Notes under the pieces: generated by a model | What the model was told of the DNA's origin: nothing | Seen by the model: the letters and a program-made list of their open reading frames with translations, nothing else | The model's database searches: none | Program-made: the position numbers and the translations under genes | Shown: in pieces, positions 23,548 to 40,496 of the stretch | Layout of the letters: each line of letters opens with the position of its first letter | Numbering within the stretch: the stretch's first letter is position 1 | Source of the DNA: a virus | IMG/VR virus record: IMGVR_UViG_3300037882_000161 | Span: 1-40,496 of that record | Strand: one strand, 5' to 3' | DNA length: 40,496 nucleotides

Positions 23548-23585
23548 GTTCTGTTTCTCCTGTTCTGTTGTAAGTCCGATTGACT

Positions 23586-23604
23586 CACTAGGAGATTTCT
23601 AGTG
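23586..23604. promoter_or_regulatory. Operator-like inverted repeat over the SprT promoter -10
   Basis: CACTAG-gagattt-CTAGTG is a perfect 6-bp inverted repeat with a 7-base centre. It covers the predicted -10 (TAGAAA, 23601-23596) of the leftward SprT promoter and is therefore well placed for a repressor. Confidence 0.45.
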
Positions 23605-23671
23605 CCTCGGGTTAGGCGCGGTCAAATCTTGGTGAGCGTGTGTCGAAAAAAACTTTGTGAGATGCATCACA
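23596..23671 (-). promoter_or_regulatory. CRP-like box E plus promoter for the SprT-like gene
   Basis: Box TGTGAGATGCATCACA is at 23656-23671. TTGACC (23625-23620), an 18-base spacer and TAGAAA (23601-23596) follow, about 50 bases before ATG 23547. The box-to-(-35) gap is 30 bases, about two helical turns longer than the 10-11 bases at A-C, so the box keeps roughly the same face of the DNA. Confidence 0.55.
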
Positions 23672-24011
23672 TCCCGCGTGTGAGCGTGTGTCTCAAATAG
23701 TGAGACGGCAAGTGAGCGCCCCCGCATGCATGCCCCCCCGCCCCCCCGCGCTCCTTGTAGGGGCAAGAGTTAAACGCCTTTCAAGTGATAGCCCGCTCAC
23801 ATCGCTAGCCCTGCCCTCTTTCTTGTGTCGGGCTTGTGCTTTCTTGTAAGTAGATGAGTGATTGCAGGGTCATGTGTGACCCCAGGGTTGTTAAATGCGG
23901 TGTATATGTGTATATGTGTATGTACCCACATAACTTTGATAGTCCTCGTTATGGGGCGCTGACCAGCACTTATGTCTTAAGATAAAAGATTTTAAAAATA
24001 CTTGCCAAAAA

Positions 24012-24050
24012 AGTGTCCAATAAAGTGTCTCTGGACACCTATAGTATAGT
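24012..24050 (+). promoter_or_regulatory. Candidate late promoter/operator region upstream of terL
   Basis: AGTGTC occurs at 24012 and 24024 (12 bases apart) and its complement GGACAC at 24033, giving AAGTGTCC and GGACACCT as inverted arms. Directly downstream is TATAGTATAGT (24040-24050), a -10-like repeat. No good sigma-70 -35 sits at the right distance, so use of the phage sigma factor or an activator is possible. Confidence 0.45.
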
Positions 24051-24088
24051 GAGGGGCGTAAATAATGTAGCCCCTCTGCTTACTAGCA

Positions 24089-24204
24089 ACCAGCCCTAAG
24101 GCTGGTACCCTAATAAACGCCCTAACCTACGGCTTCCGCCTTAGGGCTACAGCCTACGGTTAGGAAAGAGAGTTTGGCGAAACGCTCCTAAAAGGTCGCG
24201 TTTC
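24089..24204 (+). promoter_or_regulatory. Structured 5' leader of the terminase operon
   Basis: Three stems are visible. H1: ACCAGCC-CTAA-GGCTGGT (24089-24106). H2: CCTAACC-tac-GGCT...AGCC-tac-GGTTAGG (24121-24164), 11 pairs around a 3x3 internal loop. H3: GAAACGC-12-GCGTTTC (24179-24204), with the only SD-like AAAGG in its loop. AGCCCTAAGGC (24092-24102) is also fully complementary to GCCTTAGGGCT (24138-24148), which would break H1 and H2. The leader may switch between two forms. Confidence 0.6.
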
Positions 24205-24210
24205 TGCTAC

Positions 24211-26085
24211 ATGCCTATGGAAAGAAAAAGAACGACTGCCGCATCCCATAAGTCGGATGCCATCAAAAAGCAAGTTATAGATTTTCTTATGCAGGGGTAC
24301 TCTGTTCAAAAAGCGATGGATGCCGTGGGTCGAAGTGTAAAGACCTACGAGTATTACCGTAAGACAGACCCCTCCTTTGCACTAGGAGTTGACAAGGTAC
24401 GGTCCATGACCGCCCGTGGGGACATCAATAGCCCCCGTGAGGAAGTGCCTCCTTTTGCGGAGTTTTCTAGCAAGTATCTAGGCACCGATGTCTATCCACA
24501 TCAACGACATTGGATTGACTTATTGGAATCCCGACCTCCCGTTGATGTGCATCCTTCCATCATCTTTGAGCCTGGGGACCCAGACCTACTGATTGTTAAT
24601 ACACCACCAGAGCATGCCAAGTCTACGACCATCACGGTCAACTATGCACTCTACGAGATTTGCCGTAACCCAAACATAAGAATCATCATCGTGTCTAAGA
24701 CACAGGCTATGGCGCAAAAGTTCCTGCTTTCCATCAAGAACCGTTTAACTCATCCTAAGTACCAAGACCTCCACCTGGCATTTGGTCCACCTGGGGGCTT
24801 TGAAAAGAATTCGGATTCGTGGAAGCAGGACTTAATTTACTTGTCCTCCGAGGCAAGAGACTCAGGCGAAAAGGACCCAACAGTTCAGGCTATTGGTGTT
24901 CGTGGTCATATCTACGGTGCGCGTGCTGACTTAATCATCATGGATGACTGTGTTGACCATACCAACGCCCATGAGTACGAAAAGCAGATTGACTGGATTC
25001 AGTCAGAAGTTATGTCCCGTATTGACCAAGACGGCGGTAAGTTGTTGGTCGTAGGCACTCGCCTTCGCCCTAAGGACTTGTACTCTGAATTACGCGACCC
25101 TATGCGTTACCCAGATGAAACTTCCCCCTGGACATACTTTGCACAACCTGCAGTATTAGAATTTGACGAGGACCCAACGAAATGGGTAACTCTCTGGGCT
25201 AAGACCAATATGCCACCTGTCAGTGGTAAAGGTATCCCAGATGAAAATGGTTTGTACGATAAATGGAGTGGACCTGCTCTTGCTAAGAAGCGTGGTCGTA
25301 TGTCGCCCAATCTATGGGCAATGGTTTATCAGCAGCAGCAAGTCCATGAGGACTCTGCCTTCCCTGGCGCTGCAGTAAAGGGTGTCATCAATGGCGCTCG
25401 CAACATCGGCATTATCCCCAAGGGTAAGGCTGGTAACAGAACTAACGGTATGGATGGCTTGATTGTTATGGCTGGTCTTGACCCCGCAGGTTCTGGGTTT
25501 ACTGCAGCAGTATGTATCGGCTTAGACATCTCAACTCAAAAGCGCTACATCTTGGATGTGTCCAACCAGCAAGGCATGAAGCCTGATGGTATTCGTTCCT
25601 TGATTAAGGACTGGACAGACAAGTACCGAGTTTCTGAGTGGCGAGTTGAAAAAAATGCTTTTCAAACCATGTTGACTCAGGACCGAGAGGTTCGGGAATA
25701 CCTCACAAGTAAGGGTGCAACACTTAAAGAACATCATACGGGAAACAACAAATGGGATGCAGACTTTGGTGTTGCATCACTTACTACCCTGTTTCACGAT
25801 TATGAAAATGGCAACGCCTTAGTTGAGTTTCCATCAACACATCAATCCGAAGGCTTAAAGGCTTTGATTGAGCAGTTGATTACCTGGTACCCAGATGCGC
25901 CTAAGTCTCAAAAGACTGACTGCGTAATGGCGTTCTGGTTCGTTGAACTGGCATGCCGAGACAGAATTACATCAACACAGTCGTACTCACGAAGGCACGG
26001 CAACTACAGCATATTTCAAACGAAGTATGACCGTCAACAACAGACTTACATAAATCTGGATGAACTAGAGGATATGTACGCATAG
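24211..26085 (+). CDS. terL: Terminase large subunit, 624 aa
   Basis: The packaging ATPase-nuclease. Walker A TPPEHAKSTT is at residues 131-140, Walker B LIIMDD at 241-246 and RGHIYGARAD at 231-240. The nuclease domain starts at MAGLDPAGSG (D424), with WRVEKNAFQ and a late DCVMAFWF. Residues 15-70 (DAIKKQVIDFLMQGYSVQKAMDAVGRSVKTYEYYRKTDPSF) form an extra helix-turn-helix region before the ATPase. No separate small terminase was found. There is no SD directly before ATG 24211; the nearest AAAGG is in the H3 loop of the leader. A second ATG (24217) is possible. Confidence 0.9.
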   Translation: MPMERKRTTAASHKSDAIKKQVIDFLMQGYSVQKAMDAVGRSVKTYEYYRKTDPSFALGVDKVRSMTARGDINSPREEVPPFAEFSSKYLGTDVYPHQRHWIDLLESRPPVDVHPSIIFEPGDPDLLIVNTPPEHAKSTTITVNYALYEICRNPNIRIIIVSKTQAMAQKFLLSIKNRLTHPKYQDLHLAFGPPGGFEKNSDSWKQDLIYLSSEARDSGEKDPTVQAIGVRGHIYGARADLIIMDDCVDHTNAHEYEKQIDWIQSEVMSRIDQDGGKLLVVGTRLRPKDLYSELRDPMRYPDETSPWTYFAQPAVLEFDEDPTKWVTLWAKTNMPPVSGKGIPDENGLYDKWSGPALAKKRGRMSPNLWAMVYQQQQVHEDSAFPGAAVKGVINGARNIGIIPKGKAGNRTNGMDGLIVMAGLDPAGSGFTAAVCIGLDISTQKRYILDVSNQQGMKPDGIRSLIKDWTDKYRVSEWRVEKNAFQTMLTQDREVREYLTSKGATLKEHHTGNNKWDADFGVASLTTLFHDYENGNALVEFPSTHQSEGLKALIEQLITWYPDAPKSQKTDCVMAFWFVELACRDRITSTQSYSRRHGNYSIFQTKYDRQQQTYINLDELEDMYA

Positions 26086-40364: not shown

Positions 40365-40496
40365 TGTGCATCGAGTGCGGATGTTACTCAACTAAGTCAC
40401 CTTACGGTATCGGCGGAAGTGCGGTTAACAAGCCAGCATCTGCTGATGCAAGCAAGTACAACTCTCTCGCTGCAAAGCCAGCAAAAGAGATGGAAG
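40364..40496 (+). CDS. Small Cys-containing protein, 5' part (continues at 1-113)
   Basis: The first 44 codons of a 48 aa protein beginning MCIECGCYSTKSPYGIGG. The ATG overlaps the preceding TAA. Translation continues across the contig end into bases 100-113, ending EADED. See the 3' part at 1-113. Confidence 0.7.
   Translation, partial: MCIECGCYSTKSPYGIGGSAVNKPASADASKYNSLAAKPAKEME
40398..40496. repeat. Terminal direct repeat, copy 2
   Basis: Identical to bases 1-99 over 99 bases, so the contig closes on itself. It lies inside a coding frame, which argues against cohesive-end or non-coding terminal repeats at this point. Confidence 0.9.

Follow-up and report, generated by a model that had tools for sequence, protein, structure and literature searches.

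In this study, we found that a structured, covarying element lies between the promoter and the large terminase gene (terL) of a virus contig of 40,496 bases, which was analysed at full length and is called the window below, and that this element is conserved across the phage group of the window. About 155 nt long and referred to here as the leader, it is apparently a real control element of phage late genes that has gone undescribed, as no description of it was found in the literature searched (open papers only). We put at about even the chance that it acts in cis as a structured 5′ untranslated region at the head of the late transcript, which carries the packaging and virion genes.

Genome context and hairpin layout

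The contig carries the same 99 bp at positions 1-99 and 40398-40496, which most likely means a closed genome opened at an arbitrary position. The proteins recognised in it were TerL, portal, major head and tail fibre. TerL matches nuclease-domain terminases (Terminase_6C); its nearest named relatives belong to Streptomyces phages of Beephvirinae (∼49% identity), and many viral contigs match it at 81-100% identity. The phage group of the window is a common freshwater one. The rightward late genes begin with terL, which follows a non-coding stretch (23548-24210) with a leftward gene set on its other side. In addition, the N-terminus of TerL (24217-24420) resembles a helix-turn-helix DNA-binding region and could replace a small terminase.

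The original prediction described three hairpins (H1, H2, and H3) at 24089-24204, and all of them are present there, while H0 adds a fourth hairpin 5′ of this range (Table 1). The transcript predicted to start at 24051 folds as H0-H1-H2-H3 with pair probabilities of 0.93-1.0, and the predicted leader fold has no three-way junction. H2 is the most elaborate of the four: inside its outer stem CCTAACC/GGTTAGG (24121-24127/24158-24164) come a 3x3 loop UAC/UAC, an inner stem GGCU/AGCC, a second 3x3 loop UCC/UAC and the apex GCC-UUAG-GGC. The leader region was more stable than dinucleotide shuffles, with a z of -2.6 in the window and a mean z of -3.8 over 16 leaders. Where it was searched for (the window and 36 loci), the leader was single-copy, the convincing model matches being the leader itself and a weak antisense echo only. 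No Rfam match was obtained for it at gathering or lax thresholds.

Table 1. Features of the late promoter, leader and terL region of the window
Feature	Position	Strand	Basis or comment
GACCCCAGGGTTGTTAA motif	23878..23894	+	Predicts right edge of direct terminal repeat at ∼23917, outside the leader
Palindrome GTGTCC-N14-GGACAC	24013..24038		Probable operator or -35 region of late promoter; recurs in relatives by eye
-10-like element TATAGTATA	24040..24048	+	Sequence, conserved columns; putative start at ∼24051
H0, 5′-terminal hairpin GAGGGGC-12 nt-GCCCCTC	24051..24076	+	Arms 24051-24057/24070-24076, 7 bp; fold, covariation
H1, hairpin ACCAGCC-CTAA-GGCTGGT	24089..24106	+	Arms 24089-24095/24100-24106; fold, 47 compensatory changes over 7 pairs
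H2	24121..24164	+	Fold, alignment, position 5′ of terL in viral contigs
Purine-rich SD-like stretch AGGAAAGAGAG	24162..24172	+	GAAAGGA in many relatives of the lineage; putative function
H3, hairpin GAAACGC-12 nt-GCGTTTC	24179..24204	+	Arms 24179-24185/24198-24204; between SD-like stretch and start codon
terL, large terminase	24217..26085	+	Start at second ATG (MERKR...)

Conservation and covariation

A terL search yielded 72 contigs with enough upstream sequence, and the hairpin layout was recognised by eye in all of them; the terL search and the motif search combined gave 94 distinct leaders that were parsed. A motif search of prokaryotic genomes returned two matches, both unrelated. H0, H1, and H3 keep Watson-Crick stems throughout the 94 distinct relatives, and the 12-nt loop is retained by H0 in 87 and by H3 in 86 of them. 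When stem changes were counted on a TerL tree covering 90 phages, 102 double changes proved to be both independent and compensatory, as against a mean of 2.6 and a maximum of 7 in a null model that put equal numbers of changes at random on the tree branches; the stems in this count had been found by their pairing, which biases it towards pairing. RNAalifold on a plain MAFFT alignment recovered H0, H2, and H3 unaided, and the named structure gathered 226 doubly changed cells in that alignment, compared with 84 when shuffled and 15-29 when slid. H1 is poorly aligned by MAFFT, and its support therefore rests on the parsed set. The outer stem of H2 is invariant among relatives and the 3x3 loops are of the UNC/UNC type, while the inner stem covaries, for example by a swap between GGC/GCC and GCC/GGC (relatives L038 and L074). 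The covariation across relatives that the original prediction had proposed to look for is thus present, and loss of the stems among relatives did not occur.

The paired changes are of an unusual kind. Over all stems of the 90 relatives, G-U was involved in one change and A-C in two, 46 of the 102 were of transversion type, and some fell on short branches. G-U pairs are usually tolerated under selection at the RNA level, so that their near-absence, unusual for RNA-only selection, counts against a leader acting as RNA. Three causes could each produce the scarcity of G-U steps: short stems under strong selection, selection acting on both strands, or repair by template switching.

Late promoter

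The GTGTCC-N14-GGACAC palindrome stands immediately 5′ of the -10-like element, and H0 begins directly 3′ of that element, 15-21 nt from GGACAC, in a register that is nearly constant among relatives. If transcription starts at ∼24051, the RNA would begin within H0. The palindromes at the late promoter suggest an operator. At the equivalent place in several Planktophila-type phages stands another palindrome (ACCCGTT..AACGGGT). Many relatives (for example L008, L020, L031, and L046) also carry CRP-like palindromes, such as TGTGATGTAAATCACA, slightly 5′ of the late promoter, and Immanuel3 (L082) has one reading TGTGACCTGCATCACA.

Probable translation start of terL

The start codon of terL is probably at 24217 instead of 24211, since the second in-frame ATG and its context (TATGGAAAGA) are common to the relatives. 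Clear SD matches precede many window genes, and terL is without one at the usual distance. The original prediction had placed the only SD-like AAAGG in the H3 loop, and in the window it is indeed there; the same loop carries it in just two of the 94 leaders, which makes it no conserved ribosome site. The accompanying claim that no other SD precedes terL holds for the usual distance but overlooks the purine-rich SD-like stretch AGGAAAGAGAG between H2 and H3.

SD matches were scored with an anti-SD sequence that we take to be the usual actinobacterial one. Of 46 distinct leaders, 36 have 5 nt or more matching 5′ of H3 (mean of 11 and maximum of 19 in shuffles); with matches of 4 nt or more 3′ of H3 also accepted, the number rises to 45 (mean of 18.6 and maximum of 28 in shuffles). 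In some lineages, the SD-like match lies 3′ of H3 instead. The order of SD-like stretch, hairpin and start codon, by which T4 gene 25 is recognised as a split site, is found here too, with a match of only 5 nt in the window. In T4 genes 25 and 38, a hairpin between SD and start codon, conserved among close relatives, shortens the distance to 11 and 5 nt, respectively (PMC3014915). H3 shares this placement, but it belongs to a four-hairpin leader at the expected transcript 5′ end, and the SD-to-AUG spacing with H3 folded is longer, mostly 13-16 nt and 22 nt in the window (GAAAG, a weak case), which weighs against the leader reading.

Counterparts in other phage groups

The leader has positional counterparts in two further phage groups. 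One, with 49 distinct leaders, is made up of phages related to the Planktophila isolates LanE43AprE7/F5 (PMC10202952). In most of these leaders, a 5′ hairpin, unrelated in sequence, begins 0-3 nt past a conserved GGTTATC..TATAT promoter-like stretch; a strict script detected it in 41 of 49, and in several of the others it seems to be present but to overlap the promoter match. A CUNCG-N3..10-CUNCG motif resembling the H2 core occurs in 31 of the 49, as against 0-1 in shuffles. In the other group, the Streptomyces phages of Beephvirinae, long hairpin-rich leaders of different sequence occupy the equivalent place. Neither the Planktophila nor the Streptomyces leaders were convincingly matched by model R1, so kinship with both groups rests on position, the 5′ hairpin and, for Planktophila, the CUNCG-CUNCG motif.

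In Planktophila-type phages, genes for tRNA-Trp (L248, 1802-1874), tRNA-Arg (L249, 1518-1591), and tRNA-Ser (L250, 324-410) are located between leader and terL, all three on the same strand as both, and this strand is therefore probably transcribed there. Because of these insertions, leader and terL are no longer coupled in some relatives, so terL translation cannot be the whole role of the leader. Folding predictions differ between the groups: the complementary strand folds better in 47 of 47 relatives of the window, which counts against the leader reading and arises partly because UNC/UNC reads GNA/GNA on that strand, whereas the + strand folds better in 39 of 49 of the second group. As the two groups are biased in opposite directions, folding energies cannot decide between the strands, and what speaks for + strand RNA is the promoter register together with the tRNA genes on that strand.

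Predicted genome terminus

The records of Immanuel3, FlowerPower and WRightOn (loci L082, L290, and L291), which represent three Streptomyces phage genera, contain direct terminal repeats of 275, 253, and 264 bp, respectively, each of which stops exactly 30 bp past the G of GTTGTTAA in GACCCNNGGGTTGTTAA. Allowing up to 3 substitutions, the GACCCNNGGGTTGTTAA motif was matched in 82 of 85 window relatives, 133-176 bp upstream of GGACAC, and in 8 of 1000 random stretches. It is a probable terminase cut signal, and by homology it would put the window terminus at ∼23917, outside the leader and 134 bp to its left. An apparent cluster of contig ends 5′ of terL was not taken as evidence for genome ends, because contigs end frequently all along the non-coding stretch.

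Proposed function

For a cis-acting leader of the late transcript, the observed structure, conservation, covariation and position could be accounted for as follows. Transcription would start at ∼24051, inside H0, and H0 may then shield the RNA 5′ end from 5′-dependent decay; its place right after the -10-like element and the second-group 5′ hairpins just past their promoters both speak for this reading. Stem-loops at the 5′ end that stabilise mRNA are known (see references listed in PMC3997798). As in the ompA, papA, and aprE leaders, a stem occupies the expected first transcribed bases with its sequence free to vary, although the setting here is the late operon of actinobacterial phages and stabilisation is presumed. 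The invariant parts of H2 (CCUAACC/GGUUAGG and the UNC/UNC loops) may serve as a recognition site for a protein or RNA polymerase, and folded H3 would bring the purine-rich SD-like stretch nearer to the terL start codon, by analogy with T4 genes 25 and 38. We also consider, tentatively, that the leader represents a new phage-RNA family, common to the window group and the Planktophila phages, whose invariant H2 core and UNC/UNC loops would let it act on RNA polymerase or the packaging machinery; this is possible, though we would not expect it.

Alternative explanations

The first proposal of the original prediction was a switch or attenuator with exclusive pairing between H1 and H2. In such a switch, H1 would pair with the H2 apex and thereby expose or hide H3 or terL. 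The 11-bp complementarity is exact in the window, AGCCCTAAGGC (24092-24102) against GCCTTAGGGCT (24138-24148), each occurring once there; the complementarity is largely a consequence of the near-palindromic core GCC-NNNN-GGC that H1 and H2 share, with complementary loops. The pairing is present in only seven of the 94 leaders; mismatched H1/H2 controls taken from different phages give a similar distribution of the longest H1:H2 complementarity. Moreover, the alternative helix is paired in 76.6% of cells versus 75.3% in shuffles, giving no covariation above control, and in the window it is 6.8 kcal/mol worse, with a pair probability of 0.0001. No intrinsic terminator was found that could make the leader a terminator-type attenuator. 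An exclusive switch is contradicted as a family-wide mechanism, and we regard it as very improbable; what survives of the proposed layout is a conserved, covarying structured leader before terL, without its two states. The riboswitch/attenuator class was likewise rejected, as the two alternative pairings are not both conserved and neither a terminator nor a conserved SD-sequestering stem was found as output. The second proposal, a DNA packaging (pac) recognition structure, would agree with the adjacency to terL, with stems that are almost purely Watson-Crick (G-T and A-C being rare), as expected if both strands matter, and with the good folding of the complementary strand. Against it, the terminal repeats of the three isolated relatives end well upstream, the arms of H0, H1, and H3 change freely and so offer no fixed protein site, and H0 sits at the promoter start, as do the hairpins of unrelated sequence in the second phage group; a pac role acting at the DNA level is thus unlikely. 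Paired changes that lack G-U intermediates, are often of transversion type and sometimes fall on short branches might also arise if inverted repeats were kept mutationally, by template switching at quasi-palindromes, with little function. This we find scarcely credible, given the fixed hairpin order, the mostly fixed 12-nt loops, the invariant H2 core, and the fixed registers to promoter and start codon.

Processive antitermination is the strongest rival to the leader reading, though on the whole we think it rather unlikely. On emerging from the exit channel, the leader RNA would bind the host RNA polymerase, allowing read-through of the long late operon. HK022 put RNA acts on RNA polymerase in this manner, giving read-through. 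The put RNAs, of ∼70 nt with two stem-loops, provide a precedent, putL being located just downstream of its promoter (PMC9378689), and our element resembles them as a structured RNA with internal loops directly past a phage promoter. It stays at the promoter where tRNA genes are inserted before terL, and the parts of H2 that do not vary point to a fixed partner. On the other hand, the window leader is longer than put, belongs to a late instead of an early operon, has no known sequence relation to put, and would leave H3 and its link to the SD superfluous. A trans-acting RNA cut from the leader, for instance a packaging RNA or a decoy, also appears improbable. Compact multi-hairpin RNA beside a packaging gene would suit it, and staphylococcal phage terminase regions yield structured RNAs (cabRNA; PMC10686824), but these come from the terS/terL coding sequence and vary in sequence between phages, whereas the present leader is non-coding and covaries; moreover, no processing site was seen. 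The likeness to phi29 pRNA is that of a structured phage RNA linked to packaging, but TerL matches the nuclease-domain type and not a phi29-type ATPase. A phi29-type pRNA identity was discarded on the absence of both a three-way junction and an Rfam match.

Significance

In a common group of freshwater phages, the late operon is headed by a non-coding element that covaries very strongly and lacks an Rfam counterpart. Its stems evolve through paired changes, with hardly any G-U steps. Outside the leader, the position of the genome terminus is a precise and testable prediction. Furthermore, isolated relatives (Planktophila LanE43AprE7/F5; Streptomyces Immanuel3, WRightOn and FlowerPower) make the function of the leader directly testable in the wider group.
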